Shown here in pieces: positions 31,500 through 61,540 of a stretch of DNA of 64,000 nt. Position numbers and translations under genes: made by a program. The stretch comes from Aeromicrobium choanae (GTDB taxonomy: Bacteria; Actinomycetota; Actinomycetes; Propionibacteriales; Nocardioidaceae), in assembly GCF_900167475.1 (NCBI RefSeq), contig NZ_LT796768.1:1178001-1242000 (forward strand), read 5' to 3'. Positions within the stretch are counted from its first letter, which is position 1. Every line of letters begins with the position of its first letter. Below the pieces are notes generated by a model. The model saw only the letters and a program-made list of their open reading frames with translations, searched no databases and had not been told where the DNA came from.

Positions 31500-31509
31500 A
31501 GGAGTGGTG

Positions 31510-32121: not shown

Positions 32122-32134
32122 CCAAGAATCATTA

Positions 32135-32150: not shown

Positions 32151-32193
32151 TTTTGGGCAGACTGAGGCTCCGATCCCCAAGGAGTGGCTGCCC

Positions 32194-43852: not shown

Positions 43853-43858
43853 GGAACC

Positions 43859-44464
43859 GTGGACGACCTCAGCCCCGAGGGGGCAACCTGGATGCGGGCC
43901 TGGGACCCGGTGGTCTCGCGCGTGGGCGAGCTGATCGACGAGGACCGGGTGACGTTCGGCCCGGACCGGGTGGAGCCCGGAGCGATCCGCCGGTACCTCG
44001 AGCCGATCGAGCTGGACTCGGCGATCCACACCGACGTCGAGGCCGCTCGGCGACACGGCTGGCCCGGCATCGTGGCGCCGTACACGTCCGTGTGGTCGGC
44101 GCTGCTGCCCGCGGTCTGGAGCCCCGAGCGCGGGCCGCTGTATCCCGAGGGCGCCGGCCGCGATGCCCAGCCCGCGTGGAGCCCGATCGGCGACGACGTC
44201 GTCCCCGGCGCCCCCGCGACGAGTGCGGTGTTCGGCGCCGACCTGTCACTGGAGTTCGACCGGCCCCTTCTCGTCGGCGAGCGGGCCGGCGCCGGACCGC
44301 GCCGGCTGGTGGCGTGCACACCGAAGGAGACCCGCGTCGGGCGCGGCGCCTTCGTGCGCTTCGAGCGCGACGTGGTGGTGGAGTCGGGCGAGCGCGTGTG
44401 CCGCATGAGCGCCGAGATCTATCTCTACGACCCGCATCCGGCGAAAGGGGCCGACGGTGACTGA
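43859..44464 (+). CDS. MaoC-like dehydratase, N-terminal (FAS1-like) domain protein
   Basis: A 201-residue single hotdog-domain protein of the FAS1-like dehydratase N-terminal type: EPGAIRRYLEPIELD near the N-terminus, WPGIVAPYTSVWSALLP, and GADLSLEFDRPLLVGERAG in the second half. It lacks the Asp-x4-His catalytic pair, which the next gene provides. Such halves form a heteromeric enoyl-CoA hydratase, as ChsH1-ChsH2 do in cholesterol side-chain degradation. GTG at 43859 with GAGG upstream; overlaps the next gene by 8 bp. Confidence 0.85.
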   Translation: MDDLSPEGATWMRAWDPVVSRVGELIDEDRVTFGPDRVEPGAIRRYLEPIELDSAIHTDVEAARRHGWPGIVAPYTSVWSALLPAVWSPERGPLYPEGAGRDAQPAWSPIGDDVVPGAPATSAVFGADLSLEFDRPLLVGERAGAGPRRLVACTPKETRVGRGAFVRFERDVVVESGERVCRMSAEIYLYDPHPAKGADGD

Positions 44465-44888
44465 CCTGACCACGAGGACGTTCGCGAGCGTGTCGGTCGG
44501 CGAGGCGCTGCCCGTCGTGACGTACCCGCTGACCGTCCACCGGCTGGTGGTGGCGGCCGGCTCGACGCGCGACCACACGGCGATCCACCACAACGACGAC
44601 CACGCCCGGGCGACGGGAGCACCCGGGATGTACGCCAGCGCCATCCTGCTCCAGGGCATGTGGGAGCGCTCCGTACGGGACTGGGCGGGACCCGGTGCGC
44701 GGATCGCGGCACTCCGGGGCTTCCGCATGCGCCGGTTCACCGTGGTCGGCTCCCTCGTCGAGGTGCACGGCGAGGTCGTGTCGCTGCAGCCCTCCCGCTC
44801 GGGCGGACTGGTCGAGCTGGCCATGAGCACCGTGGTCGACGGGACGATCACCGTCGGCCCGGGATCCGTCCTCGTCGCGCTGGACTGA
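44457..44888 (+). CDS. MaoC-like dehydratase, catalytic subunit
   Basis: A 143-residue hotdog protein with the (R)-hydratase motif: Asp39 and His44 in STRDHTAIHHNDDHARA, followed by GAPGMYASAILLQG. Together with the preceding non-catalytic half it would hydrate a bulky enoyl-CoA. GTG start at 44457. It ends set 1 on this side, 12 bp before a strong hairpin shared with the convergent binding-protein gene of set 2. Confidence 0.88.
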   Translation: MTDLTTRTFASVSVGEALPVVTYPLTVHRLVVAAGSTRDHTAIHHNDDHARATGAPGMYASAILLQGMWERSVRDWAGPGARIAALRGFRMRRFTVVGSLVEVHGEVVSLQPSRSGGLVELAMSTVVDGTITVGPGSVLVALD

Positions 44889-44900
44889 GGGACACGAACG

Positions 44901-44935
44901 AGGGGGTGTGGCACCGATCCGGTGCCACACCCCCT
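44901..44935. terminator. Hairpin between set 1 and set 2
   Basis: AGGGGGTGTGGCACCG (44901-44916) pairs perfectly with 44920-44935 across a three-base loop ATC. It separates the convergent MaoC gene and the set-2 binding-protein gene and marks the boundary of the two gene sets. No long U-run. Confidence 0.87.
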
Positions 44936-44954: not shown

Positions 44955-46172
44955 TCACTGCTTCAACGCGTTGACCACCGGCGGCTCGAGCTCCTTCGCG
45001 GTGAACTCGTCGAGGATCTCGACCCCCCACTCGCCGTCCTTCTCCACGAGGCGCACGGTGAACTGCGGCACCGTCACCTGGTTGTCCTCGGCGCGGATGA
45101 TGACCTCGCCGGCCGGGCCCTCGAAGGAGTGGCCCTGCAGCGCCTCGGCCATCGCCTCGGTGTCGGTGCCACCCTCCTGGATCGCCCGGACCACCATCGC
45201 CCCGGCGTGCCAGCCCACGGCGTCGTCGTACTCGATCGCGTGGTCGTTGGCCTTCGAGTACGCCTGCAGCGCCTCGTCGGCCTCGTTGCCGGTGGCCCCG
45301 GCGAAGTACGACAGGTAAAACGTCGAGTTGTCGACGCTGTCCCCGAGGGCCTCGCCGACCGGCGCCCAGTCGCTCTTGAGCAGCAGCGGCTTGAAGAAGG
45401 TCGCGTCGTCGAGCAGGCCCTGGCTGTCGAGCGAGCCGAGCAGCTGGTTGTAGCCCTTGCCGGCCCACGTGGTGGTGATGAAGTCCGGTGCATCCTTCTC
45501 CACCTTCAGCATCGTGGGCGTGAAGTCCGACGTGCTGACCGGCAGCAGGTAGGAGACGACCTTCACCCCGAGCGGCTCGAGCTGGGCCTTGTAGGCCTTC
45601 GCCATGGTCTGGCCGAACGCGTAGTCCTGGTCGACCGTGACGAGCGTCTTGCCCTTGAGGTCGTCGCCGAGGATCTTGGGCACGATCATCTGGCCCGCCG
45701 GGGAGGATCCGGCCGTGCCGAAGACCTTCTTGTCCATCCCGACGAACGCGGTGGTGCCGGCGGTTCCGCCGATGAACATCGCGTTGTTCTGGACGGCCTG
45801 CTCCGCGACCGCCACGGCGACGGCGGAGTCGGTCGTGCCGGCCAGGATGGTCGCTCCCTGGCCCAGGAACTCCTTCGCCTTGGCGGTGCCGACGGCCGCG
45901 TCCCCGGTGTCGTCGCCGACCATGACCTCGATCTTGTGGCCGTCCACCTCACCGGTGCCGTCGGTCAGGTGCTCGATGGCGGCGTTGAAGCCGTTCTGGA
46001 AGTCCTTGGCCTGCGTCGAGAAGACGCCGGTCTCGGACACGATGATCCCCACCTTCACGGGATCCTTGCTCGAGGAGTCGTCGTCAGACGATCCAGAGCT
46101 GCAGGCGGACAGGGTCAGGCATGCGGCGGCACCTGCGACCAGCAGGTACCTCGCGCTCCGGTGCGTCTTCAA
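44955..46172 (-). CDS. Substrate-binding lipoprotein of a LIV-type ABC importer (set 2)
   Basis: A 405-residue lipoprotein. The signal peptide ends LTLSAC with Cys24, followed by a Ser/Asp-rich linker and the binding domain starting VKVGIIVSETGVFSTQAKD. It is clearly different from the other two binding proteins in the window, which share a WGINAELSG start. The start codon is taken as TTG at 46172, overlapping the stop of the enoyl-CoA hydratase gene, with GAGG about nine bases upstream; no ATG gives a full signal peptide. Last gene of the set-2 importer operon. Confidence 0.88.
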   Translation of the reverse strand: MKTHRSARYLLVAGAAACLTLSACSSGSSDDDSSSKDPVKVGIIVSETGVFSTQAKDFQNGFNAAIEHLTDGTGEVDGHKIEVMVGDDTGDAAVGTAKAKEFLGQGATILAGTTDSAVAVAVAEQAVQNNAMFIGGTAGTTAFVGMDKKVFGTAGSSPAGQMIVPKILGDDLKGKTLVTVDQDYAFGQTMAKAYKAQLEPLGVKVVSYLLPVSTSDFTPTMLKVEKDAPDFITTTWAGKGYNQLLGSLDSQGLLDDATFFKPLLLKSDWAPVGEALGDSVDNSTFYLSYFAGATGNEADEALQAYSKANDHAIEYDDAVGWHAGAMVVRAIQEGGTDTEAMAEALQGHSFEGPAGEVIIRAEDNQVTVPQFTVRLVEKDGEWGVEILDEFTAKELEPPVVNALKQ

Positions 46173-47110
46173 TCTCTCGTGCCTCTCTCGTGGGGGGTCG
46201 TTCGGTCGTCGCGTGGTGCGACGGAGGAAGCTGTGGTGCGCCCGACGACGCGGTTCCAGCTGGACGCCTTCTCCGAGGACTCGGGGGGGCGCACGAGCGC
46301 CTGGCCCCCGGTCTCGACGGCCCAGCGTGCGTGGTTGAGCTGGTGCAGGGTGAACGCCGACTGCAGCGAGTTGTAGAACCCCTGGTGGTCCTGGGTCTGG
46401 TTGACCGAGTCCTTGATCATCAGGGCCGCGGCCGTGTCGACCTGGGCGATGCGCCGCGCGAGCGCCATCGTGCTGTCGACGAGGCTGCCCTCGGGGAAGA
46501 CCTTGCTGACCATGCCGAGGCGGTGCGCCTCCTCGACCGACAGGGAGTCGCCGGTCAGGAGGAGCTCCTTGGCCTTCCGCGGACCGAACTCCCACGGGTG
46601 GCCGAAGTACTCGACCCCGCACATGCCCAGCCGCGTGCCGACCACGTCGGCGAAGACCGCCGTCTCGTCGGCGACGATCAGGTCGCACGCCCACATCAGC
46701 ATGAGGCCCGCGGAGTACACCGGGCCCTGCACCGAGGCGATCGTGATCTTGCGCAGGTCCCGCCAGCGGCGCGTGTTGTGGAAGAAGTAGTGCCACTCCT
46801 GCAGGTAGGTCGACTCGACCGTCCCCTTGGTGCCGCCGTTGATCCCGTAGGTCGGATGCTGACCCGGCCCCGGCGACATCTCCTCGATGAGGTCCGCGCT
46901 GCCCATGTCGTGACCGGCCGAGAACGCCGTCCCGGCGCCGCGGAGGATCACGACGCGGACGGTGTCGTCCTGCTCGGCACGCTCGAAGGCGTCCCCGAGC
47001 TCGACCAGGAGGCCTCGGTGCTGGGCGTTGCGCTGTCGCGGTCGGTCGAGGGTGATCGTGGCGATCGTCCCCTCGTCCTCTGTCGCGTACTGGATGAATC
47101 GGTACGTCAT
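46169..47110 (-). CDS. Enoyl-CoA hydratase family protein within the set-2 transporter operon
   Basis: A 313-residue crotonase-fold protein with GAGTAFSAGHDMGSAD and VQGPVYSAGLMLMWACDLIV (oxyanion hole) and a C-terminal extension of about 30 residues ending in a charged tail. It is longer than usual and has an insertion after the first motif (GPGQHPTYGINGGTKG). ATG at 47110 behind GGAAGG. Its location between the permease and the binding-protein genes ties uptake and degradation in set 2 into one transcript. Specific reaction unknown. Confidence 0.87.
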   Translation of the reverse strand: MTYRFIQYATEDEGTIATITLDRPRQRNAQHRGLLVELGDAFERAEQDDTVRVVILRGAGTAFSAGHDMGSADLIEEMSPGPGQHPTYGINGGTKGTVESTYLQEWHYFFHNTRRWRDLRKITIASVQGPVYSAGLMLMWACDLIVADETAVFADVVGTRLGMCGVEYFGHPWEFGPRKAKELLLTGDSLSVEEAHRLGMVSKVFPEGSLVDSTMALARRIAQVDTAAALMIKDSVNQTQDHQGFYNSLQSAFTLHQLNHARWAVETGGQALVRPPESSEKASSWNRVVGRTTASSVAPRDDRTTPHERGTRD

Positions 47111-47127
47111 GGGACCTTCCTGGTTCA

Positions 47128-48159
47128 TCAGGACCCCACCGGGGTCCGTCGTTGGGAGAACAAGCCCGCGATGCCCCCGGGCAAGAAGAAGATGAGCGCG
47201 ATGAAGACCACGCCGAAGAGCAGCTGGGGCTCCGAGAGCGGGATGCGCACGACCTCGGGCAGGTTCTTCACGCCCTCGGAGGACGCCAGCTCGGGGAGCC
47301 GCTGCTCGAGCAGGACGTAGACCGCCGCTCCGAGCGCCGCGCCCCAGATCCTGCCGCGGCCGCCGATCACGACCATCACGATCAGGCTCAGCGACATCAT
47401 GAGCCCGGCCATGTGCGGCACGCCGCCGCCCAGGACGATGACGTACGCGATGCCGCAGATCCCGGCGAGGAACGCGCTGAGCGAGGCGGAGACGAGCTTG
47501 GCCAGATAGGTGTTGACGCCCATGACGTTGACCCGCAGCTCGTTCTCGCGGATCGCCTGCCAGATCCGGCCCAGGCGGGTCGAGGTCGCCCACAGCGCCA
47601 CCGCCACCACCAGGACCAGGGTGGCCAGCGCGACCCAGTAGATGTTGCGCGTGTTCACGACGCCCACCAGCTGCTCGGGCATCGAGCGGTACGGGACCGT
47701 CAGGCCCTCCTCGCCGCCGGTGCCCCAGTAGTTGCGGCCGATGCCGATGGCCACGACCTCGGCGAAGGCCAGCGTCACCATCGCGAAGGACAGGCCCGCG
47801 ACGCGCAGCGCGACTCCGTTGACGAGGACTCCGCCGACCGCCGAGGCCACCAGGCCGATGCCGATGGCGGCGCCGAACCCGAGCTCCGTGTGGGCCAGGG
47901 TCATCGCGAAGCCGTAGCCGCCCAGGGTGAAGAACAGGGCGTGGCCGAACGAGTTGAGGCCCGTGTACCCGAAGACGATGTCGAACGACACGGCCAGCGC
48001 GGCCGTGACCAGCACGAGCGCGAGGACCTGCAGGCTGCCCGGGCTGTTGATCTCATAGGGCAGGAAGCCGCCGGTCGTGAACGAGAAGAACGGGACGCAG
48101 GCCAGGACGACGAGCAGTACGGCGACGCCGCCCACCCGGACCATCGTGTGCCGACTCAT
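47128..48159 (-). CDS. livM: LIV-type ABC transporter permease (LivM)
   Basis: A 343-residue permease with about ten hydrophobic segments. LivM blocks are GYTGLNSFGHALFFTLGGYG, WQAIRENELRVNVMGVN (ATPase-coupling loop) and IVMVVIGGRGRIWGAALGA. It overlaps the LivH gene by 4 bp. The C-terminus ends shortly after the last helix. Part of the five-gene importer unit of set 2, whose operon also carries an enoyl-CoA hydratase. Confidence 0.91.
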   Translation of the reverse strand: MSRHTMVRVGGVAVLLVVLACVPFFSFTTGGFLPYEINSPGSLQVLALVLVTAALAVSFDIVFGYTGLNSFGHALFFTLGGYGFAMTLAHTELGFGAAIGIGLVASAVGGVLVNGVALRVAGLSFAMVTLAFAEVVAIGIGRNYWGTGGEEGLTVPYRSMPEQLVGVVNTRNIYWVALATLVLVVAVALWATSTRLGRIWQAIRENELRVNVMGVNTYLAKLVSASLSAFLAGICGIAYVIVLGGGVPHMAGLMMSLSLIVMVVIGGRGRIWGAALGAAVYVLLEQRLPELASSEGVKNLPEVVRIPLSEPQLLFGVVFIALIFFLPGGIAGLFSQRRTPVGS

Positions 48160-49052
48160 ACCGCACGCCCCTCTCGGCCGAAGAGCCCTTGCGGTCGGAC
48201 CAGCACCGTGAGCGCCATCAGCATCACCGCGAGCAGGTCACCCGCTCCGCCGTTGATGTAGTAGTTCGCGAACTGCTGGATCAGCCCGATGCCCAGCGCG
48301 GCGACGAACGCGCCGGGAACCGAGCCGAGCCCGCCGATGATCAGCACGATGAAGGCGAAGATGAGGAAGGCCTCGCCCGTGGCGGGGCTGATCGCGCGCA
48401 GGTAGACGCCGCTCAGCGCTCCGCCGGCACCGGCGAGCAGTCCGCCCAGCACGAAGACGAGCGTGAACGAGTGGCGCACGTCGATGCCGAGCGCCCGGAC
48501 CATGTCGCGGTTCTCCACGCCGGCGCGCACGATGAGGCCGTGCCGGGTGTGGCGCAGGAAGAGCATGATCGCGAGGAAGACCGCCACGGCGACCGCGATG
48601 ATCATCAGCCGGTCGTTCGTGATCGGCGCGCCGAAGATCGACGTCGTCGACGTGAGGGAGTCCGGCAGCGGGATGATCCGCTCCTCGTGCCCCCAGATGC
48701 CGCTGATCAGCGCGGTCAGGACGAACCCCAGGCCCAGGGTCACCAGCACGATGTCGAAGTGGTCGCGCGAGTAGAGCGGCCTCAGCAGGACGAGTTCGGT
48801 CACCAGCGCGATGAGGCCACCGACCAGGGTCGCCAGCACGATCGCCAGCAGGAGGCGCCCGAGCGTCGGGTCCTCGCCGTTCGTCTCGCGGACGACGAGC
48901 CAGCTCGCGTACGCACAGACCGTCAGGAAGGCGGCGTGCGCCAGGCTCAGCACGTTCATCAGCCCGAAGACCAGGCTCAGGCCCGATGACAGCAGGAAGT
49001 ACAGGGAGCCGATCCCCAGGCCGGTGAAGGCCAGGACGAGCACGGTGTCCAT
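48156..49052 (-). CDS. livH: LIV-type ABC transporter permease (LivH)
   Basis: A 298-residue permease with about eight hydrophobic segments. LivH blocks are FGLMNVLSLAHAAFLTVCAY near the N-terminus, ENRDMVRALGIDVR (coupling loop) and LIIGGLGSVPGAFVAALG near the end. ATG at 49052, one base of overlap with the stop of LivF. Its partner permease LivM follows immediately. Confidence 0.91.
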   Translation of the reverse strand: MDTVLVLAFTGLGIGSLYFLLSSGLSLVFGLMNVLSLAHAAFLTVCAYASWLVVRETNGEDPTLGRLLLAIVLATLVGGLIALVTELVLLRPLYSRDHFDIVLVTLGLGFVLTALISGIWGHEERIIPLPDSLTSTTSIFGAPITNDRLMIIAVAVAVFLAIMLFLRHTRHGLIVRAGVENRDMVRALGIDVRHSFTLVFVLGGLLAGAGGALSGVYLRAISPATGEAFLIFAFIVLIIGGLGSVPGAFVAALGIGLIQQFANYYINGGAGDLLAVMLMALTVLVRPQGLFGREGRAV

Positions 49053-49765
49053 CAGTGGCCCCCCTGCGTCGTGCCGACCCCGAGTGCTTCGCGGATCGTC
49101 GCCTCGTCGTGCAGCACGGCGGCGGGATGCTGGGCCACGACCCGGCCCTCGGCCATGATCACGACGTGGTCGGCCAGGCGGCGTGCGGCCGCGATGTTCT
49201 GCTCGACCATCAGCACGGTCGCGGTGCCCTTGATCAGCTCGAGCGCCTTGACGACCTCGGAGACCACCTTGGGCGCCAGGCCCTTCGTCGGCTCGTCGAT
49301 CAGCAGGAGGGGGCTCTCGTTGAGCAGGCCGCGGGCGAGGGAGACCATCTGCTGCTGACCACCCGAGAGCGTCCCGGCGCGCTGCTTGGCACGCGACTCC
49401 AGCTCGGGGAACAGGTCGTGCACGAGGTCGTAGCGGTGGGGCCGGCCCTTGCGCTCGGCGAGGGCGAGGTTCTCGGCCACCGTGAGGTCGGCGAAGACGT
49501 CGCGGTCCTCCGGGACGTAGGCGATGCCCTCGCGCACGATGCGCGACGTCTCCATCGCGTCGATCCGGCGGCCGTCGTAGCGGATCTCCCCCGTGCGCTC
49601 GACGAGGCCGAGGACCGCCCGCAGCGTCGTGGTCTTGCCGACGCCGTTGCGGCCGATGATCACGGTGACGTCGCCCGCCGGCACGTCGAAGGAGACGCCC
49701 TGCAGGATGTGGGAGACCCCGATCGACGCATGGACGTCGCTCAGCTCCAGGAGGTGCTCGGTCAC
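49052..49765 (-). CDS. livF: LIV-type ABC transporter ATP-binding protein (LivF)
   Basis: A 237-residue ATPase of the set-2 importer with an intact Walker A (GRNGVGKTT), signature LSGGQQQM and Walker B LLLIDEPTKGLAP; the switch residue is Gln in MVEQNI, normal for LivF. It begins with GTG at 49765 in a GTGA overlap with the LivG stop. Confidence 0.93.
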   Translation of the reverse strand: MTEHLLELSDVHASIGVSHILQGVSFDVPAGDVTVIIGRNGVGKTTTLRAVLGLVERTGEIRYDGRRIDAMETSRIVREGIAYVPEDRDVFADLTVAENLALAERKGRPHRYDLVHDLFPELESRAKQRAGTLSGGQQQMVSLARGLLNESPLLLIDEPTKGLAPKVVSEVVKALELIKGTATVLMVEQNIAAARRLADHVVIMAEGRVVAQHPAAVLHDEATIREALGVGTTQGGH

Positions 49766-50526
49766 AGGAGCTCCCCGACGTAGGCGGTCTGCACGCGCTC
49801 GTCGGCGGTGACCCGGTCAGGGAGGTCGACCGCGAGCAGCTCGCCCTTGTGCATCACGGCGACCCGGTCGGCCAGGCCCAGGACGACGTCGAGGTGGTGC
49901 TCCACCATGAGGAAGGTCGCCCCGGTGTCCACGTGCAGCCGTCGGATGAGCTCGGTGAGGTCGTGGACGTCCTCGGAGTTCACGCCGGCCATGGGCTCGT
50001 CCAGCAGCACGAAGGGAGCCTCGGCGGCCACCACGATCGCGAGCTCGAGCTTGCGTCGGTCGCCGTGCGAGAGCGCACCGGCCTGCAGCGTCGCGGCACC
50101 CCCGAGGCCCACCCGCTCGAGTGCCGCGTGGGCCGCGTCGAGCGTCTCGTCCGTGGAGGTCAGCGTCCGCAGCAGCCCCATGCGGCGGACGCCGCGGGTC
50201 TGCGCCATGAGGCGCACGTTCTCCAGCACCGTCAGCCCGAGCAGCAGGTACGAGGTCTGGAACGTGCGGGCCAGGCCCAGGCGAGCCCGCCGGTGGGGCG
50301 CCATCCGCGTGACGTCGGTGTCGCCGAGCCACACCGTGCCGGCGGTCGTGCGCACCGTGCCGGTCAACAGGTTCAGCAGGGTGGTCTTGCCGGCACCGTT
50401 GGGTCCGATGATGCCCAGGAACTCGCCGGGCGGGACGGTGAGGCTCACGTCCTCGACGATCTTGGCGCCGCCGGCGCGGAACGTCAGGCCCTCCGTCCTC
50501 AGGACGGACGGTTCTCGTGGAGTCAT
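49762..50526 (-). CDS. livG: LIV-type ABC transporter ATP-binding protein (LivG)
   Basis: A 254-residue ATPase, first gene of the set-2 importer operon. Walker A GPNGAGKTT, signature LSHGDRRKLELA (one of the normal LivG forms), Walker B FVLLDEPMAGVN and H-loop MVEHHLDV are all present, in contrast to the set-1 LivG whose signature is degenerate. ATG at 50526. The set-2 palindrome lies about 50 bp upstream. Confidence 0.93.
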   Translation of the reverse strand: MTPREPSVLRTEGLTFRAGGAKIVEDVSLTVPPGEFLGIIGPNGAGKTTLLNLLTGTVRTTAGTVWLGDTDVTRMAPHRRARLGLARTFQTSYLLLGLTVLENVRLMAQTRGVRRMGLLRTLTSTDETLDAAHAALERVGLGGAATLQAGALSHGDRRKLELAIVVAAEAPFVLLDEPMAGVNSEDVHDLTELIRRLHVDTGATFLMVEHHLDVVLGLADRVAVMHKGELLAVDLPDRVTADERVQTAYVGELL

Positions 50527-50577: not shown

Positions 50578-50604
50578 TAATACGTACGGGAACCATACGC
50601 AATA
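50578..50604. promoter_or_regulatory. Set-2 operator f and promoter of the livGFHM operon
   Basis: Arms TAATACGTACG (50578-50588) and CATACGCAATA (50594-50604) are separated by 5 bp. On the minus strand the arms contain a promoter TTGCGT (50597-50602), 17 bp, TACGCT (50574-50579) reading into livG. Arm sequence and 5-bp spacing match the sites at 54.71, 56.11 and 57.73 kb. Confidence 0.78.
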
Positions 50605-50701
50605 AGATTGACGTAATTCATTGCACGTCAGGGAATATCCCTCTCCCCTCGCCTCGTGCGCGTGGCGGATGGGTCCACCCGGTACGAAATGGGACCCTCG
50701 G

Positions 50702-52267
50702 TCAGCCGATCTCGCCGGACTCGATCCGGCGCAGCAGCTCGCGCTTGTCGGGCTTCGTGGTGGGCAGGAGCGGCAGCTCCTCGACGACGATCCAGCGCTT
50801 GGGGATCTTGTACGGGGAGATCTCCGAGCGCAGGTGACGCGTCACGACCTCGGGATCGAAGGTCTCCGGATTCCGCGGCACGACCGCGGCGACGACCTCC
50901 TGACCGACCTCCGGATCGCCCAGACCGACGACGAAGCAGTGGTTGACGTCAGGATGCTCGTCGATCACCGCCTCGACCTCCTTCGGCGACACGTTGGCAC
51001 CGGACGTCTTGATCAGCTCGGTGAAGCGACCGGCGAAGTAGACGGAGGGGTCGCCCTCACGTCGGAACACCCGGTCCCCGGTGTGCAGCCACCCGTCGTC
51101 GTCCAGCACCTCCCAGGCCTCGCGCTTGTTGTAGCCGAGCATGAACCCGGGACCACGGACCCAGAGCTCGCCCTCGAGCCCCGTGGGCACGGCCGCACCG
51201 TCCTCGTCCACCACCGTGATGTCCGTGGTCAGGAAGCTGCCCGCCGTCTCGGTCATGCTGCGGTGCCGCGGGACGTTGTCGGTGGTGCCCTGCAGGGCGA
51301 GGTCGGCCGGGCCGTCGAGCAGCGACGGCGCCGAGGAGAGGTCGCGCGTGCCGAAGTCCGGGTGCAGTCGCAGGCGCTGGGTGAACGTGGGCCAGCCGGC
51401 GACCGCGGTCCCCCGCTCACGCTCCAGCAGCTCCAGCGCGCCGCCCGCGTCCAGCCGGTCCATGACCAGGAGCGTCACCGGGCCGTGCAGCGTGCCGGCC
51501 GCGCCGAGCACTCCCCCGATCCAGAAGAAGGGCATCGCGCAGAGGTACTTGGGTGCCAGCCCCTCCGGCGCCATCGCCGCCATGGTGGACGGGATGATCG
51601 CCGTCTGGCGCATCACGGCGCCGTGGGAGTGCACCACGCCCTTCGGATCGGCCGTCGTGCCCGACGTGTGGATGATCAGCGCGGCGTCGGAGGGGAAGAC
51701 CTCGGCCTCGACCGCCTCGAGGAGGCCTGCATCGGCGTCCGCCTCCGTCGGCTCACCGCGCAGGTCGTGGGCGACCGCCCAGGCGGGGGCATCGTCGGCT
51801 CCGTCCAGCCAGATCCGTCGCAGGTACGGCGCGTCAGGGAGCCGCAGTCCGGGGCCGTCGTGGGAGGCCAGGCCGGGCAGGGCCTGCTCCAGGAACGACG
51901 GCACGTCGATCTTCAGCACGCGGGCGGGCGCCAGCAGGACGTCGACGTCGCCGAGCCGCAGCACCTTCCGCAGCTCGCCCGGGGCGTAGAACGTGCTGAG
52001 CGGCAGGACCACGGCGCCGATCCGTGACGCGGCGAGCCACGCGACCACCCAGTCGGTGCCGTTCGCGTAGAACAGGCCCACCCGGGTTCCCTTGCCGACT
52101 CCCTGCCCCAGCATCCGCCGGGCGAGGGCGGCGGACGCCGCCTCGGCCTGCGCGTACGTCATCCGGTCGTCGAGGCTCACGACGTAGTCGACGTCCCCGA
52201 ACTCCGTCGCGGCCCGGCGGATCGCCGTGCCGATCGTCGGGCGGAAGCCGATGTCGGCTGGTTCCAT
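50702..52267 (-). CDS. AMP-dependent acyl-CoA synthetase
   Basis: A 521-residue ANL ligase. Motifs: IIHTSGTTADPKGVVHS, RSMTETAGSF, DDGWLHTGDRVF, and the C-terminal PTTKPDKREL, where the catalytic Lys is kept although the usual Thr-Gly-Lys reads Thr-Thr-Lys. ATG at 52267 behind GAGGAG. Third gene of a minus-strand operon after the ACAD pair; it would activate the acid imported by the set-2 transporter or an intermediate. Confidence 0.9.
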   Translation of the reverse strand: MEPADIGFRPTIGTAIRRAATEFGDVDYVVSLDDRMTYAQAEAASAALARRMLGQGVGKGTRVGLFYANGTDWVVAWLAASRIGAVVLPLSTFYAPGELRKVLRLGDVDVLLAPARVLKIDVPSFLEQALPGLASHDGPGLRLPDAPYLRRIWLDGADDAPAWAVAHDLRGEPTEADADAGLLEAVEAEVFPSDAALIIHTSGTTADPKGVVHSHGAVMRQTAIIPSTMAAMAPEGLAPKYLCAMPFFWIGGVLGAAGTLHGPVTLLVMDRLDAGGALELLERERGTAVAGWPTFTQRLRLHPDFGTRDLSSAPSLLDGPADLALQGTTDNVPRHRSMTETAGSFLTTDITVVDEDGAAVPTGLEGELWVRGPGFMLGYNKREAWEVLDDDGWLHTGDRVFRREGDPSVYFAGRFTELIKTSGANVSPKEVEAVIDEHPDVNHCFVVGLGDPEVGQEVVAAVVPRNPETFDPEVVTRHLRSEISPYKIPKRWIVVEELPLLPTTKPDKRELLRRIESGEIG

Positions 52268-52284
52268 GCTCACTCCTCGTGTGG

Positions 52285-53421
52285 TCACTCGTTCGAGTCC
52301 AGGGTCAGTCGCGCGATGCGCTCGCGGTGGTGGTCGGGCGTTCCCAGCCACTGCCGGTCGAAGGTCGCCCTCTTGAAGAACAGCTGGGCGGTGTGCTCCC
52401 AGGTGAAGCCGAGCCCGCCGTGCACCTGAACGGATGCGCCCGCGGCCGCCAGGGCGACGTCGGAGCCGACCGCCTGGCACAGGTGCGTCAGGAGTCGCGC
52501 CCGCGGATCCCCGGCGTCGGTCGCGCGCGCGGTCTGGTGCACCGAGGCGCTCAGGGCCTCGACCTCGACGTACCGGTCCGCCAGCAGGTGCTTGATGGCC
52601 TGGAACGACCCGATCGGCCGGCCGAACTGCGTCCGCTCGGTCGCGTACGCGACAGCCGACTCCAGCGCCCGCGAGGCCACGCCGAGCTGCTCGGCAGCCA
52701 GGGCCAGCGCACCCACCAGGAGCGCCGGCTCGGCCGAGATCGCACCAGGTCGGCCGACCGGCTGCGCGGGCGCACCGGACAGCTCCAGCCGGCCGAGCCC
52801 TCGCGTCGGATCCAGCGACGGCACCGTCTCGCGGCGCAGACCCGGTGCGCTGGCCTCGACGGCGAAGAGGCCGGGCCCGTCGTCGGTCCCCGCCCAGACG
52901 AGCACCACGTCGGCCACGTCGAGGTCGACGACCCAGTCCTTCGCGCCCTCCAGCCGCCAGCCGCCGTCCCGCTTCTCGGCACGGGTGTCGAGCAGGTCGA
53001 GCGACCAGTCGTGGGCCCGCTCCTGGAGGGCGGGCACCACGATCGTGTCGCCTCGGGCGATGCCGGGGAGCCAGGCCTCCTGCCCCTCGAGATCATCGGT
53101 CGCCAGCAGCAGCGCGATCGCCAGCGCCGTCGTGGTCAGGGGAAGCGGCGAGACGACCCGCCCGGCCTCCTCCCAGGCGATCACCTGATAGGCCAGCGCC
53201 GCACCGTCACCACCGAACGCCTCGGGCACGCCCAGTCCGGCCAGTCCCAGCTCGGCACATCCCCGGCGCCAGGTCGCGGCCACCGCGGACACGTCACGAT
53301 CCGTCCCGAAGTCGGGAACTCGATCGGGATCGCCGTGGGCGGCCAGGAAGGAGCGCACGCTGCGCCGGAAGTCGGCGAGGTCCTGCTGCTCCCGCGCGAC
53401 CGCGTCCTGTGTCGTCGTCAT
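52285..53421 (-). CDS. Acyl-CoA dehydrogenase-like partner subunit
   Basis: A 378-residue divergent ACAD: N-terminal helical domain (FRRSVRSFLAAHGDPDR) and C-terminal domain (RTQFGRPIGSFQAIKHLLAD, then VQVHGGLGFTWEHTAQLFF) are clear, while the central TEPGxGSD motif is absent. It overlaps the larger ACAD subunit by 4 bp and forms with it the heteromeric ACAD of set 2, arranged like the two pairs in set 1. Confidence 0.88.
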   Translation of the reverse strand: MTTTQDAVAREQQDLADFRRSVRSFLAAHGDPDRVPDFGTDRDVSAVAATWRRGCAELGLAGLGVPEAFGGDGAALAYQVIAWEEAGRVVSPLPLTTTALAIALLLATDDLEGQEAWLPGIARGDTIVVPALQERAHDWSLDLLDTRAEKRDGGWRLEGAKDWVVDLDVADVVLVWAGTDDGPGLFAVEASAPGLRRETVPSLDPTRGLGRLELSGAPAQPVGRPGAISAEPALLVGALALAAEQLGVASRALESAVAYATERTQFGRPIGSFQAIKHLLADRYVEVEALSASVHQTARATDAGDPRARLLTHLCQAVGSDVALAAAGASVQVHGGLGFTWEHTAQLFFKRATFDRQWLGTPDHHRERIARLTLDSNE

Positions 53422-54653
53422 CGCAGGTCCGCCATCGCTCGGGGCTCGCGCGGGAGGCCGAGGACCTGCTCGCCGATCGTCGTCCTCTGGATCTGGCTGG
53501 ATCCGCCGTAGATCACCGCTGCCCTGGAGCGCAGGTAGGACTGCTGCCAGGCAGCGGCCGAGTTCGGCGTGCCGACCGGGTCCGGGCCCAGCACCGTGGC
53601 CGAGGGCGGGCCCGTCCGGGCGGTGCCACCCATCCCCAGCAGGTCCATCGCCAGGTCGGTGAGCCGCAGGTCGAACGTGGTCTCGAAGAGCTTGAACACC
53701 GAGGACTCCGGCCCCGGCCCCTTCCCGCCCCGCGCGTTCTCACGCGCTTGCATGGTGAGCATCCGCATCGTCTCGACGCCGATGCGGATGTCGGCGATGC
53801 GCTGCCGCACCAGCGGATCGGTGGCGCGCCCCTGCTCGCGCGCCAGGGCCACGAGTCGCTCCAGCTCGTGGGCGTAGTGCACGTGCGCCGCGCCGAAGGC
53901 GGAGCGCTCGAGCCCGAGCAGGCTGAGCGCGACTCGCGCGCCCTCGCCCGGCCGGCCCAGTACATGGCTCGCCGCGGTGCGCGCACCCTCCAGCCTCACC
54001 TCGGCGAACTCGTGCTCGCCCGTCATCGAGCGGATCGGCGTCACGACGACCCCCGGCTGGTCCAGCGGGACGAGGAGGAAGGACAGCGCGTCACGGTTGC
54101 GCGCCGTCGCGTCGGTCCGGGCGAGCAGGAAGATCCAGTTGGCCCGATGGCCCTGCGTCTGCCAGATCTTGTGCCCGTCGACGACCCAGTCGTCACCATC
54201 GAGGACGGCCCGGGTCCTCAGGCCGAAGAGGTCGCTGCCGGCCTCGGGCTCGGAGAACCCCTGGGCCCATCGGTGCTCGCCGGTGACCAGGCGCGGCAGG
54301 AAGTGGGCCTGCTGCTCGGGCGTCCCCCACGCGAGCACCGTGGCGCCGAGCAGGGCGAAGCCGATCGGGTCCGTCGGGAGGGGCCACTGCGGGACACCCG
54401 CCCGCGCGAACGCCTCGTCCAGGATGATGCGCTCCGCTTCGGAGAGTCCGGCGCCTCCGTGCTCGAGAGGCCAGTCCGGGGCGATGAGGCCGCTCTCCGC
54501 CAGGGCAGCACGCCACGGGCCCAGGAACTCCTCGCGCGCCCCTGCGTCCAGCGCGCCGATGCCCGGGAACCCTGGCGGGACGTGCTCGTCGAGGAATCGC
54601 TCGATCCGGTCACGGATCTCGTTGTCGCTCGATCCGGCGTCAGCCTCCGCCAC
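53418..54653 (-). CDS. Acyl-CoA dehydrogenase, larger subunit of a probable heteromer
   Basis: A 411-residue ACAD with WAQGFSEPEAGSDLFGLRT, VDGHKIWQTQGHRANWIFLL and the end IYGGSSQIQRTTIGEQVLGL. The open frame reaches a GTG at 54677, but the GTG at 54653 is preferred because AGGAGG lies four bases before it. First gene of the operon with its partner ACAD and a ligase. A set-2 palindrome and promoter lie about 40-80 bp upstream. Confidence 0.9.
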   Translation of the reverse strand: MAEADAGSSDNEIRDRIERFLDEHVPPGFPGIGALDAGAREEFLGPWRAALAESGLIAPDWPLEHGGAGLSEAERIILDEAFARAGVPQWPLPTDPIGFALLGATVLAWGTPEQQAHFLPRLVTGEHRWAQGFSEPEAGSDLFGLRTRAVLDGDDWVVDGHKIWQTQGHRANWIFLLARTDATARNRDALSFLLVPLDQPGVVVTPIRSMTGEHEFAEVRLEGARTAASHVLGRPGEGARVALSLLGLERSAFGAAHVHYAHELERLVALAREQGRATDPLVRQRIADIRIGVETMRMLTMQARENARGGKGPGPESSVFKLFETTFDLRLTDLAMDLLGMGGTARTGPPSATVLGPDPVGTPNSAAAWQQSYLRSRAAVIYGGSSQIQRTTIGEQVLGLPREPRAMADLR

Positions 54654-54693
54654 GGGTCCTCCTAGGGTGTGATCCACGCCACCAGTGTGTTTC

Positions 54694-54732
54694 GGATCCT
54701 ATTACGTACGGGTTTCGTTCGCAATAGGATCC
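54694..54732. promoter_or_regulatory. Set-2 operator g and promoter of the ACAD-pair/ligase operon
   Basis: Outer arms GGATCCTATT (54694-54703) and AATAGGATCC (54723-54732) are perfect inverted repeats. Inside are the set-2 arms TATTACGTACG and CGTTCGCAATA separated by 5 bp. On the minus strand the element contains TTGCGA (54719-54724), 17 bp, TAGGAT (54696-54701), so operator and promoter coincide. Confidence 0.85.
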
Positions 54733-54756
54733 TCGAAGTTCGCCCGAGACGAAGAG

Positions 54757-54794
54757 CGACCGGGCGCCCCTGCGGCAGCAGGGGCGCCCGGTCG
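54757..54794. terminator. Hairpin downstream of the orphan binding-protein gene
   Basis: CGACCGGGCGCCCCTGC (54757-54773) pairs perfectly with 54778-54794 across the loop GGCA, a 17-bp stem. It lies 14 bp after the stop of the minus-strand gene at 54.8-56.0 kb and insulates it from the ACAD operon promoter just beyond. Confidence 0.88.
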
Positions 54795-54807
54795 GTCCGG
54801 GAGGCAC

Positions 54808-55983
54808 TCAGTCGACGTCGAAGGAGGAGACCTTCTCGTACTTCGGCCCGGTCACCTGGTAGAGGTACCAGTCCGAGAACGGGTAGTGGTCACCCTCGTA
54901 GGAGAAGTCCGAGACCAGACCTTCCATGTCGAACGTCTCCGTGCTCAGGACCTTCGCGAGGTCCTTGCCGGAGCACGGGTGGCCGCACTCCTTCGTGGCC
55001 TGCCCGAAGGCGTTGGCGGTGATGTACGCCATCGCGGTGTAGCCGGCGTTCAGCGTGACGGCGTTGACCTCCTTCAGCGTCGGGGAGATGGCGTCGATGT
55101 AGTCGACCGCGACGCCGGTGGCGTTGTCCGGGTCCACCAGCTCGTAGGCCGTCATCGCGTAGACGTTCTCGTCCGTCGACTCCTCGAGCGACGTCAGGTT
55201 CCCGGTGCCGTCGGCCCAGACCACCGGCACGTCGAGACCCGCCGACCGGACCGCCTTGAGCACGGCCAGGAAGCCCGGCCCGAAGTTGCTCACGATGACG
55301 ACGTCGGGCTTGGACGCCACGACCTTGGCGACCTGCGGGGAGACGTCAGTGGCGGCGAGGTCGAGCTCCTGCGACGTCACCAGATCGACACCGGCGCCGT
55401 CGGCCTGCTCCTTGATCGCCTCGGCGAGCGCCAGGACGGTGAGGGTGTTCAGGTGCACGAGCGCGGCCTTCGGCGCGTCCTTGCCCGAGACCTCCTTGGC
55501 GGCCTCGAGGAGGGCGCCACCCATGCGGGCGCTGTTCGGCCCCAGGTTGTAGACGTAGTCACTGCTCTCCGCGACCGAGAGGCACGCGAGCGGCACGGTG
55601 TACCGCTCGACGACCGGCGTGGCGGCCGAGCAGTTCGCGCTGAGCACGAAGCCGAACATCGCACTGACCTCGTCGGACGTGATCAGCTGCGTCGCGTTCG
55701 TCGCGGACCGCGACGAGTCGCCCGCGTTGTCGACGGACGTCAGGTCGATCTCGTGACCGTCGATGCCGCCGTCCTTGTTGACCTGGTCGACGTAGGCCTT
55801 CACCCCGGCCTGCAGCGACTCGCCGTAGAAGGCGACATTGCCGGAGAGCTCGGCATTGATGCCCCACGCGTGCTTGTCATCCCCGGCGGCGGCGTCGTCC
55901 CCGCCACCGCACGCGGCGGCGGTCGCAGCGAGAGCGAAGGACGCAAGAGCGACCTTCGCGCGGGTCAAATGGTGTGTCCTCAT
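54808..55983 (-). CDS. Orphan substrate-binding lipoprotein, LIV type
   Basis: A 391-residue binding protein with lipobox TAAAC (Cys25) and a mature start WGINAELSGNVAFYG. It is close along its length to the set-1 binding protein at 21.0-22.2 kb (for example FGFVLSANCSAATPVVERY), not to the set-2 one at 45.0 kb. No permease or ATPase genes accompany it and a terminator follows, so it must use a transporter encoded elsewhere, perhaps the set-1 importer. ATG at 55983 behind GGGAG. Its promoter shares the set-2 palindrome with the divergent ligase gene. Confidence 0.9.
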   Translation of the reverse strand: MRTHHLTRAKVALASFALAATAAACGGGDDAAAGDDKHAWGINAELSGNVAFYGESLQAGVKAYVDQVNKDGGIDGHEIDLTSVDNAGDSSRSATNATQLITSDEVSAMFGFVLSANCSAATPVVERYTVPLACLSVAESSDYVYNLGPNSARMGGALLEAAKEVSGKDAPKAALVHLNTLTVLALAEAIKEQADGAGVDLVTSQELDLAATDVSPQVAKVVASKPDVVIVSNFGPGFLAVLKAVRSAGLDVPVVWADGTGNLTSLEESTDENVYAMTAYELVDPDNATGVAVDYIDAISPTLKEVNAVTLNAGYTAMAYITANAFGQATKECGHPCSGKDLAKVLSTETFDMEGLVSDFSYEGDHYPFSDWYLYQVTGPKYEKVSSFDVD

Positions 55984-56095
55984 CAGTTCTCCCTGTGCGA
56001 ATGCGCCGTTTATTAATTCCGACGTCGGTGTCAATCTAAGTGTGACCTCCACCACTGTCAATCGCCTTGAAAGACCCCGTTCCCAGAGCCCTCCC

Positions 56096-56122
56096 TATTG
56101 TGTCCGAAGTCCGTCCGTAATA
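56096..56122. promoter_or_regulatory. Set-2 operator h, bidirectional promoter-operator
   Basis: Arms TATTGTGTCCG (56096-56106) and CGTCCGTAATA (56112-56122) with a 5-bp spacer. Plus strand: TTGTGT (56098-56103), 17 bp, TAGCCT (56121-56126) towards the ligase. Minus strand: TTACGG (56115-56120), 17 bp, TAGGGA (56092-56097) towards the binding-protein gene. Both promoters overlap the same element face to face. Confidence 0.8.
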
Positions 56123-56155
56123 GCCTTCCTGCCACATCCCCCAAGGAGGCACACC

Positions 56156-57712
56156 GTGACGGCATTCGACTACTCGACGATCCTCGACCAGACGGCGAGC
56201 CGGTCGCCGGAGCGCGTCGGCCTGCTCGCGGGCGACGTCGAGCTCACGTACGGGGAGATCCGGGCGGCGTCCGACGCGATGGCGCGAGGCCTCCACGCGC
56301 TGGGAGTGCGCCCCGGCGATCGGGTCGCACTGTGCCTGGGCACGCAGCCGGAGTGGGTCTTCGCCTTCTTCGCCCTGTGCCGGCTGCGCGCCTCGGCCGT
56401 GCTGATGCCGAGCGCCTGGCGCAGCACCGAGATCCGTCACGCGTTCACCCTCACCGGACCGCGGGCCGTGGTGGCCAGTCGCGAGCTCGCGGAGTTCGTC
56501 GACGAGATCGACCGCCCCGAGATCGCCGTCGTCACGGGTCCGGGCGACGAGCGTCCCGGATGGACCGAGATGGCATCGCTCCTCAGCGGAGACTTCGCCG
56601 ACGTGCCGGAGGAGATCCACGCGATCGACCCGACCGACAGCGAGGTCGCCCTGCCCTTCAGCTCCGGGACGACCGGGATGCCCAAGGCGGTCCGCCACAC
56701 GCACCGCAGCCTCGTCGTGGCGACGGAGCAGTGGCGCGCGAGCCTCGACATCGGACCGCAGGACCGGCTGCAGGCACTGACGCCGCTCGCCCACATCCTG
56801 GGCATCGTCAACATCGGGGCGACGTTCATCGGGGAGGCGGCGATCCGGCTGTTCCCGAAGTTCAGCACCCGCGCCATGGTCGAGAGCTTCCAGGCGGACC
56901 GCGTGACGATCGGCATGGCGGTGGCGCCGATCGCCGCCGCCCTGGCGGACATGCCCGACCTCGAGGACTTCGACCTGTCGAGCCTGCGCTACCTCAACTG
57001 GTCGGCCACCCCGGTCAACCGCGACATCGCCGCGCGGGTCACCGAGCGCACCGGCGTCCACTGGGCACCGGCCTACGGGACGACCGAAGTGCCGATCATC
57101 GCGGTGAACCCCGTCACCCCCGGGGCTGCGCGGCTCGACTCGGTCGGACTGCCTCCGAGGGAGGTCGAGGTCGAGGCCATCGACCTGGTGAGCCACGAGT
57201 TCCTGCCCCGGGGGGAGACCGGCGAGATCGTCGTCCGGAGCCCTGCCGCGATGGCGGGCTACCTTCCCGCCGGCCAGCCGCCGTTCCTGCCCGGAGGCTG
57301 GTACCGCACCGGTGACATCGGGCACGTGGAGGCGCAGGGCTGGGTCATGCTGAGCGATCGCGTCAAGGACATCATCCGGGTCTCCGGGAACCAGGTGTCC
57401 CCCGTCGAGATCGAGCAGGTGCTGCTGACGTCCCCGGACGTCGCCGACTGCGCGGTCTTCGGGGTTCCGGACGACCGTCGCGGCGAGCGACCCGTGGCCG
57501 CGGTGATCCTGGCCGCCGACGCCGATCCCGATCCGGAGCTGCTGATCGAGTGGCTGGCGCCGCGGCTGGCGCCCTACAAGCGCCTGCGCGAGGTCTTCGT
57601 GGTCCAGGAGATCCCCCGGACGCCGTCGGGCAAGATCCAGCGACGACGCCTCGCCGAGGCGTTCCCCGTGGACGACTCGACGATGACGGCCGTCGGGGAG
57701 AAGATGAACTAG
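56156..57712 (+). CDS. AMP-dependent acyl-CoA synthetase
   Basis: A 518-residue ANL ligase. Motifs: LPFSSGTTGMPKAVRHT, PAYGTTEVP, GGWYRTGDIG, DRVKDIIRVSGNQVSP and RTPSGKIQRRRL with the catalytic Lys. GTG at 56156 follows AAGGAGG, so the longer frame upstream is rejected. Transcribed alone from the bidirectional set-2 promoter; 60 bp downstream lies the regulator operon. Substrate unknown; with the ligase at 50.7 kb it gives set 2 two activation steps. Confidence 0.91.
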   Translation: MTAFDYSTILDQTASRSPERVGLLAGDVELTYGEIRAASDAMARGLHALGVRPGDRVALCLGTQPEWVFAFFALCRLRASAVLMPSAWRSTEIRHAFTLTGPRAVVASRELAEFVDEIDRPEIAVVTGPGDERPGWTEMASLLSGDFADVPEEIHAIDPTDSEVALPFSSGTTGMPKAVRHTHRSLVVATEQWRASLDIGPQDRLQALTPLAHILGIVNIGATFIGEAAIRLFPKFSTRAMVESFQADRVTIGMAVAPIAAALADMPDLEDFDLSSLRYLNWSATPVNRDIAARVTERTGVHWAPAYGTTEVPIIAVNPVTPGAARLDSVGLPPREVEVEAIDLVSHEFLPRGETGEIVVRSPAAMAGYLPAGQPPFLPGGWYRTGDIGHVEAQGWVMLSDRVKDIIRVSGNQVSPVEIEQVLLTSPDVADCAVFGVPDDRRGERPVAAVILAADADPDPELLIEWLAPRLAPYKRLREVFVVQEIPRTPSGKIQRRRLAEAFPVDDSTMTAVGEKMN

Positions 57713-57739
57713 CATTCCGTACGCCTCCCATACTCAATC
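57713..57739. promoter_or_regulatory. Set-2 operator i, upstream of the TetR gene
   Basis: CATTCCGTACG (57713-57723) and CATACTCAATC (57729-57739), again with a 5-bp spacer, form the weakest of the four set-2 sites. It lies 35 bp before the TetR gene of set 2 and would allow autoregulation. A -35 TTCCGT is visible but no good -10. Confidence 0.65.
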
Positions 57740-57774: not shown

Positions 57775-58425
57775 ATGTCATCCACCAGCGAAGGAACGCG
57801 CCGGCGCGCCGGGCGGAAGCGGGACCCGCGCGTCGAGCCACTCGTGCTGAGTGCCGCCCTGGAGATCTACGCCCTCCAGGGCTGGCGTGGGCTGACGTTC
57901 GACGCGGTCGCCCGCGCGGCGAAGATCGGCAAGCCGGCGATCTACCGGCGATGGGAGAGCCGCGAGCTGCTCCTCGTGTCCGCGTTCAACCGCACGAACT
58001 TCCCGACCGCACGGGACATGGGCAGCCTGGAAGCGGACGTCCGCGACTACCACGCGCAATGGCTCGACTGGTACGCGGCGCCGTTCCTGCCGCAGGCCGG
58101 GAACCGCATCCTGGTGGACTGCACCAGCAACGACGAGCTCGACCGGCTCTACCGCGAGATGGTGATCGGGCCCCGGACCCGCGCCGCCCGCCAGGTGACA
58201 CGGCGGGCGATCGCCCGCGGCGAGCTGGACCCCCGCACCTCCCCTGCCACGCTCCCCGACCTGATCCTCGGCGGCATGTTCATGCACTGGGTCTTCGCAC
58301 CCGACCGCGAGGAGCCGGCGTTCGCCGCCTCCTTCGAGAAGGAGTCGGCCGCACTCGTCGAGGTGATCCTGCAGGGGCTCCGCCACGGCTCCGGGGAGCC
58401 GGCGGAGGAGGAGTCCGATGCGTGA
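57775..58425 (+). CDS. TetR family regulator, likely repressor of set 2
   Basis: A 216-residue TetR protein with an Arg/Lys-rich N-terminus and the helix-turn-helix LTFDAVARAAKIGKPAIYRR (about 40-60); the C-terminal domain is of the type with FDAVARAAKIGKPAIYRRW followed by a conserved Trp-rich core. It is first in an operon with a thiolase and an ACAD, joined by an 8-bp overlap. It is the only regulator in set 2 and has a set-2 palindrome at its own promoter, making it the likely binder of the four 27-bp elements. No ribosome site is obvious for the ATG at 57775. Confidence 0.88.
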   Translation: MSSTSEGTRRRAGRKRDPRVEPLVLSAALEIYALQGWRGLTFDAVARAAKIGKPAIYRRWESRELLLVSAFNRTNFPTARDMGSLEADVRDYHAQWLDWYAAPFLPQAGNRILVDCTSNDELDRLYREMVIGPRTRAARQVTRRAIARGELDPRTSPATLPDLILGGMFMHWVFAPDREEPAFAASFEKESAALVEVILQGLRHGSGEPAEEESDA

Positions 58426-59625
58426 GGTCGTGATCTGCGAGCCGGTGCGCACGGCGATCGGCGGCTACGGCGGCTCGCTCGCCCCGCTCAGCGCTACCGA
58501 CCTCGGCGTCAGCGCCGTGACCGGACTGCTCCAGCGGACCGGGATCCCGCCGGAGACGGTCGACGACGTCATCCTCGGCCACTGCTATCCCACCGCCGAC
58601 GCCCCCGCGATCGGGCGCGTGGTCGCCCTCGACTCCGGCCTGCCCGTCACCGTGGGCGGACAGCAGGTCGACCGGCGCTGCGGGTCCGGCCTGCAGGCCG
58701 TGATCACCGCTGCACTGCAGGTCGGCTCCGGAGCGAACGACGTCGTTCTCGCTGGCGGGACCGAGTCGATGAGCAACGCGGCCCACTTCTCGACCGACAT
58801 GCGCTGGGGCGCCTCCCGGTCCGGAGTACGCATCCACGACGCTCTGGCCCGGGGCCGTCAGACGGCGGGCGGGCGCTTCCACCCGGTGCCAGGGGGCATG
58901 CTCGAGACGGCCGAGAACCTGCGCCGGGAGTACGGGATCACCCGGGACGAGCAGGACCGGTACGCGCTCGAGTCCCACCGCCGCGCCGTGGCGGCTCGCG
59001 CCGCGGGTCTCACGGCCGGTGAGGTCGTCCCCACGACCGTGCCCCACCGGCGTGGCGACGTCGTCGTCGACCAGGACGAGCACCCGCGCAGCGACGTCAC
59101 GCTCGAGTCGCTCGCCGCGCTGCGGCCGGTGTTGGGCGCTTCCGACCCCGAGGCCACCGTCACGGCAGGGAACGCCAGTGGGCAGAACGACGCGGCCGCG
59201 ATCGCCCTCGTCACCACGCGCGAGAAGGCCGAGAGCCTCGGGGTCCGCCCGCTCGTGCGCTTGGTCTCGTGGGGCTTGGGCGGCGTCCGCCCGGACGTGA
59301 TGGGCATCGGGCCCGTGCCGGCGAGCGCCGCGGCGCTCGATCGCGCCGGCCTCACCCTGGCCGACATGGACCTGATCGAGCTCAACGAGGCCTTCGCCGC
59401 CCAGGCTCTCGCCGTCGTCCGCGCCTGGGACTTCACCGAGGCCGACCTGGAGCGGACGAACGTCAGCGGCTCCGGCATCTCGCTCGGACACCCCGTCGGG
59501 GCGACGGGCGGCCGCATGCTGGCGACGCTCGCGCGAGAGCTGCACCGGCGCGAGCAGCGCTACGGGCTGCTGACCATGTGCATCGGCGGGGGCCAGGGCC
59601 TCGCGGGCGTGTTCGAGCGGGTCGC

Positions 59626-59629
<4 letters not shown>
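58418..59629 (+). CDS. Thiolase (acetyl-CoA acyltransferase)
   Basis: A 403-residue thiolase of set 2. Nucleophile Cys88 is in VDRRCGSGLQAV, ELNEAFAAQALAV and LGHPVGATGGR (His) follow, and Cys388 is in MCIGGGQG. All catalytic residues are present. ATG at 58418, overlapping the TetR gene by 8 bp; its stop overlaps the ACAD start by 4 bp. Performs the final cleavage of a 3-oxoacyl-CoA. Confidence 0.93.
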
Positions 59630-60801
<1,172 letters not shown>

Positions 60802-61524: not shown

Positions 61525-61540
61525 TTGACTTCGACGTCAA
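61525..61540. promoter_or_regulatory. Set-1 operator e and promoter of the oxidoreductase gene
   Basis: TTGACTTCGACGTCAA is palindromic with one mismatch. On the minus strand TATAGT (61541-61546) directly precedes it, with -35 TTGACC at 61563-61568 and a 16-bp spacer, giving the best promoter of the group. The operator would cover the transcription start. Confidence 0.8.

Follow-up and report, generated by a model that had tools for sequence, protein, structure and literature searches.

Four 27-bp dyads in a catabolic gene region

The window considered here, a 64,000-nucleotide stretch of Aeromicrobium choanae (contig NZ_LT796768.1, positions 1,178,001 to 1,242,000), contains genes whose domains suggest that a carboxylic acid is taken up, activated with CoA and dehydrogenated, together with four copies of a 27-bp dyad that stand between them. 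On the minus strand lie genes for a livG-type ABC ATPase (49762..50526), for ACAD2 (53418..54653) and for a livK-type substrate-binding protein (54808..55983); on the plus strand lie ACS2, encoding an acyl-CoA synthetase (AMP-binding; 56156..57712), and tetR (57775..58425), whose 216-aa product is the proposed repressor.

A first-pass annotation had described four elements with 11-bp arms and exactly 5 bp between them, and these are present, the second lying exactly at 54700-54726. Site 1 (50578..50604, minus strand) is upstream of livG and reads, from 50578, TAATACGTACG-GGAAC-CATACGCAATA; site 2 (54700..54726, minus strand) is upstream of ACAD2, reads TATTACGTACG-GGTTT-CGTTCGCAATA from 54700, and has a symmetry that reaches 3 bp beyond each end (54697-54729). 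Site 3 (56096..56122, plus strand), between the divergent livK and ACS2, reads TATTGTGTCCG-AAGTC-CGTCCGTAATA from 56096, and site 4 (57713..57739, plus strand), the weakest, reads CATTCCGTACG-CCTCC-CATACTCAATC from 57713 and falls between ACS2 and tetR-thiolase-ACAD3, immediately after the stop codon of ACS2 and with 35 bp separating it from tetR. The spacer is 5 bp at all four sites, each dyad measuring 27 bp, and the arms pair at 8, 9, 7 and 7 of 11 positions at sites 1, 2, 3 and 4, respectively; the dyads at sites 3 and 4 are thus imperfect.

With up to 3 mismatches allowed, the pattern ATTNCGTNCG-N5-CRTNCNNAAT gives 8 strand-matches in the window, every one of them at the four sites, as compared with a mean of 0.89 and a maximum of 4 in shuffled windows (0 of 100 reach 8). 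Across the organism's own genome (3,421,926 bp), matches to this loose pattern at up to 2 mismatches are confined to the same four places, and a reversed-pattern control gives 0 forward matches and 1 reverse match. A position weight matrix (PWM) built from 7 sites outside the window, all in other genomes, ranks the four sites 1 to 4 among 63,974 window positions (scores 41.0, 35.8, 34.7 and 24.1), with the fifth-best position scoring only 2.9 and the best of 100 first-order Markov 64-kb sequences scoring 16.1; the 7 sites had originally been found via the window motif or the TetR protein, making this a consistency test and not a blind one. Under a separate PWM that does not contain it, site 4 scores 18.6 (99% null, 5.9). 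The four dyads are, on these counts, one predicted operator family specific to this cluster.

The presumed livG operon runs from 50526 down to 44955 and continues with livF (49052-49765), livH (48156-49052), livM (47128-48159), an enoyl-CoA hydratase-type gene within the open reading frame 46169-47593, and a second binding protein (44955-46184). ACAD2 heads ACAD2-ACAD1-ACS1 (54653 down to 50702), followed by ACAD1 (52285-53421) and ACS1 (50702-52267); directly 3' of tetR on the plus strand come a thiolase gene (58418-59629) and then ACAD3 (59626-60801). When ten proteins (ACS, ACAD, liv, TetR, thiolase and SDR) were profiled against NCBIfam, the thiolase alone exceeded the cut-offs, for two broad subfamilies, among the families listed (up to 25 per protein). 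The hydratase-type gene passes the cut-off of a broad enoyl-CoA hydratase subfamily among matches listed at E<=1e-60. In the TetR protein, both the N-terminal TetR_N helix-turn-helix (PF00440; 40.5 bits, cut-off 24) and the ligand domain TetR_C_11 (PF16859; 74.6 bits, cut-off 32) score above threshold. As a side observation, a further dyad, TGACGTGCAATGAATTACGTCA, is separated from the upstream end of site 1 by a few bases (50609-50630); it was flagged as terminator-like and is not evident in the related genome G122 described below.

Co-occurrence of the dyad with tetR homologues

At up to 2 mismatches the element occurs in 5 of 339 family genomes: the window's own (G000), G122, G305 (a Nocardioides metagenome-assembled genome), G109 and G358. 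For the window TetR, 341 family genomes hold one homologue at 78% identity (78-79%; G122) and one at 48% (48-52%; G305), and the 39 other family genomes with a TetR match at E<=1e-20, the own genome excluded, give identities of 29-38%. At E<=1e-28, sampling 393 genomes of the class and 245 of the order added no more than three homologues, at 36-41%. A single-protein scan of genome contigs with the TetR sequence returned no relatives.

G122, from another genus, keeps nearly the whole neighbourhood (liv, ACAD2-ACAD1-ACS1, livK and ACS2), with proteins 52-83% identical; G000 and G122 alone, among 339, have the ACAD2 gene at E<=1e-140. Its sites stand before livG, at the same place as site 1, before ACAD2 and between livK and ACS2, matching sites 2 and 3, and two more stand before tetR, which is inverted relative to the window; no thiolase or close ACAD3 is found within the 50 kb covered. 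Another G122 element before livG, at position 12850 of the joined stretch, is probably a hairpin of which one arm matches by chance, and was set aside.

Elsewhere the neighbours differ. G305 has one site between divergent genes for TetR and an alpha/beta-hydrolase, the latter followed by oligopeptide-type ABC genes. A motif scan of 84,980 named genomes, with the pattern loosened to fit the G305 site, returned six stretches: the Nocardioides genome itself, a match by design; Mycobacterium sp. BK086, the only blind match, found by motif alone; and four others with no TetR relative within up to 8 kb (E>5 or none). In BK086 the motif adjoins the gene for a 46.7% identical TetR protein with PF16859, with one site on the ferredoxin/P450 side; its neighbours include a P450 gene, a ferredoxin gene (read by eye) and, near a weaker second copy at 4844, two ACAD genes. 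Judged by such comparison, the element goes with the TetR gene at 57775-58425 while its predicted target genes change, because G305 and BK086 keep a site beside tetR and the genes around it are largely different. As a putative operator, the motif is genuine and specific, and the comparison ties it well to its TetR.

The partnership has looser edges. In G109 the element adjoins a 34% TetR homologue that is not a clear orthologue. The first-pass annotation had expected the element to be missing from genomes that lack this TetR gene, and among the five element-bearing family genomes one departs from that expectation, G358. With a looser pattern, three of the four genomes G122, G305, G109 and G358 also showed weak matches at scattered places, and the control matched once each in G305, G109 and G358. 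Of 55 regions upstream of homologues, the window and seed-bearing loci included, 12 score above the 99% null (5.9) with the PWM that gives site 4 its 18.6. A family-wide operator motif was also considered and dropped, the strict ACG-N5-CGT dyad occurring in 4 of the 55 regions only.

With regard to the protein, a recognition helix with IYRRW is present in 7 of 36 aligned TetR rows, among them those of the window, G122, G305 and G109, and also in BK086; YLRW is present in 25 of the 36, and for several of these the best element upstream resembles TGAACG or TACTGA. The difference marks a possible specificity residue; no clear operator match accompanies IYRRW in three rows (L036, L040 and L062).

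Promoter hexamers at the dyads and before livK

At three sites the first-pass annotation had placed promoter hexamers 17 bp apart, and these could be confirmed: TTGCGT-17-TACGCT before livG and TTGCGA-17-TAGGAT before ACAD2, both on the minus strand, and TTGTGT-17-TAGCCT toward ACS2 on the plus strand. The same arrangement, TTGNNN in the gene-side arm (positions 3-8) with TANNNT 17 bp on, is present in 8 of 8 sites facing operons other than tetR, namely those of livG, ACAD2 and ACS2 in G000 and G122, that of the hydrolase in G305 and that on the ferredoxin/P450 side in BK086; the direction at each site was chosen by the analyst as the one toward the non-tetR operon. This count leaves aside site 4 of the window, the two G122 tetR sites, the G109 site, the tetR direction in G305, the discarded G122 element and the weaker BK086 site.

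The gene-side arm has TTG in 8/8 sites and the opposite arm in 1/8 (Fisher 0.0014). Because orthologous sites are not independent, we also give the comparison with one site per gene group, which is 5/5 against 0/5 (Fisher 0.008) with the G000 member used, and which changes to 0.048 if the G122 ACS2 site represents its group, the opposite arm there also having TTG. Arm position 5, where the palindrome is loose, is G on the gene side in all eight sites, and in the other arm is A in 6, C in 1 and G in 1. Position 31 is T in all eight sites in the gene direction; this T is less telling than the TTG, since the opposite orientation often has T too.

Furthermore, in a pairwise alignment of G000 and G122 the operators and hexamers form conserved blocks before livG, ACAD2 and ACS2, and the six promoter sites of these two genomes have predicted leaders of 23-45 nt (start codons of G122 ACAD2 and ACS2, and of G305, were picked by eye for alignment). 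Toward tetR the picture is different: site 4 has no promoter pair (TTCCGT-17-TCTCTC), neither G122 nor G109 has one facing tetR at its tetR sites, and G305 offers in that direction a -10 hexamer, TAGGGT, without a -35. A predicted operator that overlaps the core promoter is supported at three sites, as the first-pass annotation had it, and the geometry recurs across genomes; site 4 does not fit.

The only consensus-grade promoter that the scan found in the region belongs to livK (TTGACA-17-TAGATT, 56033..56061, minus strand); it lies 34 bp outside site 3 and has a counterpart in G122, TTGACA-17-TATGTT. The earlier statement that the four dyads cover every operon of what had been called set 2 was overstated, as livK has this conserved promoter of its own, untouched by site 3 and with a set-1-like element alongside. 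The livK -10/start region overlaps CCGACGTCGGTGTCAA (56019-56034), 3 mismatches away from the set-1-like motif TTGACNTCGANGTCAA, which occurs exactly at 40293-40308 and 61525-61540 and with 2 mismatches at 28245-28260; at up to 3 mismatches there are 11 matches, several of them intragenic, against 1.55 expected. A related dyad stands at 32127-32153, just 3' of a second TetR gene (the set-1 TetR, 31504-32121). The operon at 40330-44888 and the SDR gene at 61.5 kb appear to carry the set-1-like motif and not the 27-mer. Because its promoter lies outside site 3 and overlaps a set-1-like element, livK may answer to the other regulator, and two regulons may interleave here.

Two further side observations were made in the window. 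The first gene of the 40330-44888 operon, for an acyl-CoA ligase (40330-41919), scores 646.7 bits against a FadD3-family model, just below the cut-off of 657. Long perfect inverted repeats stand between genes at 37984-38016 and 44902-44934, possibly as transcription terminators.

A proposed switch and its place among TetR systems

We consider it very likely that the TetR-family protein encoded at 57775-58425 has the four dyads as its operators, and that these are superimposed on promoters at livG, ACAD2 and ACS2. In the mechanism that we infer, this protein would bind all four 27-bp dyads, and at livG, ACAD2 and ACS2 operator and core promoter would form a single 31-bp sequence, with the -35 (TTGNNN) inside the gene-side arm and the -10 (TANNNT, positions 26-31) beginning with the TA that ends the other arm. 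A bound dimer or pair of dimers would block RNA polymerase, resulting in steric repression. Site 4 would serve autoregulation by covering the ACS2-tetR gap without a promoter of its own, where it could block read-through from ACS2 or act on an unseen promoter. The inducer is probably a CoA ester of the imported acid; by releasing the repressor, it would turn on uptake (liv), activation (ACS1 and ACS2) and dehydrogenation (the ACADs) together. The window TetR further has a basic N-terminal stretch, RRRAGRKRDPR (GRPRDP is present in 19 of 36 aligned homologue rows), which might recognise the A/T-rich termini of the 27-mer, because a positively charged N-terminal extension is reported to be used in the minor groove by SimR (excerpt of PMC4418694). 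More tentatively, and with some doubt, we suggest a portable 31-bp cassette of repressor site plus complete core promoter, in which arm position 5 and the flanking T would set the direction of transcription, and which, together with its TetR, would have been kept in two or more actinobacterial families with different catabolic genes attached to it.

Several observations weigh against the proposed switch. The three operator-borne promoters fall below the sigma-70 consensus threshold of the promoter scan, which only livK passed. Position 31 is T in the opposite orientation as well in 4 of 7 sites (5 of 8 with BK086 included), and this T may in part be an operator base. Before livG the conserved block continues beyond the -10 (TCATCACACCGCG), and the promoter and leader of livK equal the operators in conservation; conservation by itself therefore does not set the operator apart. 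Predicted leaders are longer elsewhere (73 nt in G305 and, by eye, ~190 nt in BK086), and site 4 is weak. In a rival reading, TetR binds the dyads and the overlap with promoters is incidental, transcription starting elsewhere and the protein either activating or acting as a block placed upstream or downstream. The subthreshold hexamers, the tetR sites of G000, G122 and G109 that lack a promoter pair toward tetR, and the clear livK promoter outside site 3 all agree with this; it is nonetheless unlikely, given a gene-side TTG in 8/8 sites against 1/8 and a TANNNT in 8/8 at a fixed 17 bp, both kept in G122.

Two further points against the proposed switch concern its link to this TetR. The strict ACG-N5-CGT dyad is found in just 4 of 55 homologue upstream regions (null 0.65% per region), and that scan also overlooked the tetR sites of the window and of G122 themselves. 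In G358 the 27-mer (L074:8885-8911) lies between an amidohydrolase gene and an RpiR-type gene, in a genome that has no close relative of the window TetR; the best relative (34%, E=2.6e-15) is far away on the same single contig, the others are weaker, and this copy may be another protein's operator. With a second TetR gene in the window as well, the dyads as a whole might be ascribed to another regulator, such as the set-1 TetR (31504-32121) or an RpiR-type protein. We regard that as quite improbable, as the second TetR gene and other operons have a palindrome of another kind beside them, and three other genomes, of which two have largely different targets, carry homologues of the 57775 TetR next to the dyad. 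That the dyads are chance palindromes, or belong to hairpins or terminators, is scarcely credible: two exact pattern matches elsewhere (Pseudomonas lactis and Phormidium) do look hairpin-like by eye, but the confinement of the motif genome-wide, its conservation in place and the matrix gap from 24.1 to 2.9 all argue against it, and a terminator scan names none of the four dyads.

The preferred reading, of a repressor whose operators coincide with promoters, gives one PF16859-type TetR a predicted operator, regulon and promoter geometry, separates two interleaved regulons within one catabolic region, and offers a candidate acid-inducible promoter part for actinobacteria; the general understanding of TetR repression is unchanged by it. 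In the open-licence literature, neither this TetR nor this motif is named in the titles and abstract beginnings among the matches listed.

Among known systems, KstR/KstR2-type repressors exemplify TetR control of genes for CoA-thioester catabolism, a likeness to the window system, and their operator sequences are not known to match the window dyad. Such lipid-catabolism repressors of actinobacteria are named in the excerpt of PMC3920632. MftR of Mycobacterium smegmatis, also of the TetR family, has a footprinted 27-bp palindrome, T-N2-GGCA-N5-TGCC-N2-A, and long-chain acyl-CoA effectors (excerpt of PMC8728441); as described there, it has in common with the window TetR the operator length of 27 bp and the N5 centre, and differs in arm sequence and in its regulon of mycofactocin genes. 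Indeed, the core GGCA-N5-TGCC is absent from the window dyads, whose arms are close to TATTRCGTACG / CGTWCGCAATA, and the window TetR reaches 21.4 bits against the NCBIfam mycofactocin TetR model TIGR03968, far below its cut-off of 224.9. BkaR / Fad35R (Rv2506, MSMEG_4718) is a TetR repressor that regulates itself, and its palindromes lie both in its own promoter and in those of acyl-CoA metabolism genes close by; its motif is 24 bp long with a 16-bp core, GTTA-N-T-N4-A-N-TAAC, bound by one dimer (excerpts of PMC3920632 and PMC4418694). From those excerpts, the likeness lies in the local regulon and in the motif logic by which it was found, and the differences lie in the motif and the genes; a palindrome common to the upstream regions of the regulator and of neighbouring operons, on which that logic turns, is present in the window and also in G122. 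Set beside these systems, the proposed switch adds a new, well-supported case of a kind already familiar, and is ordinary as a type.

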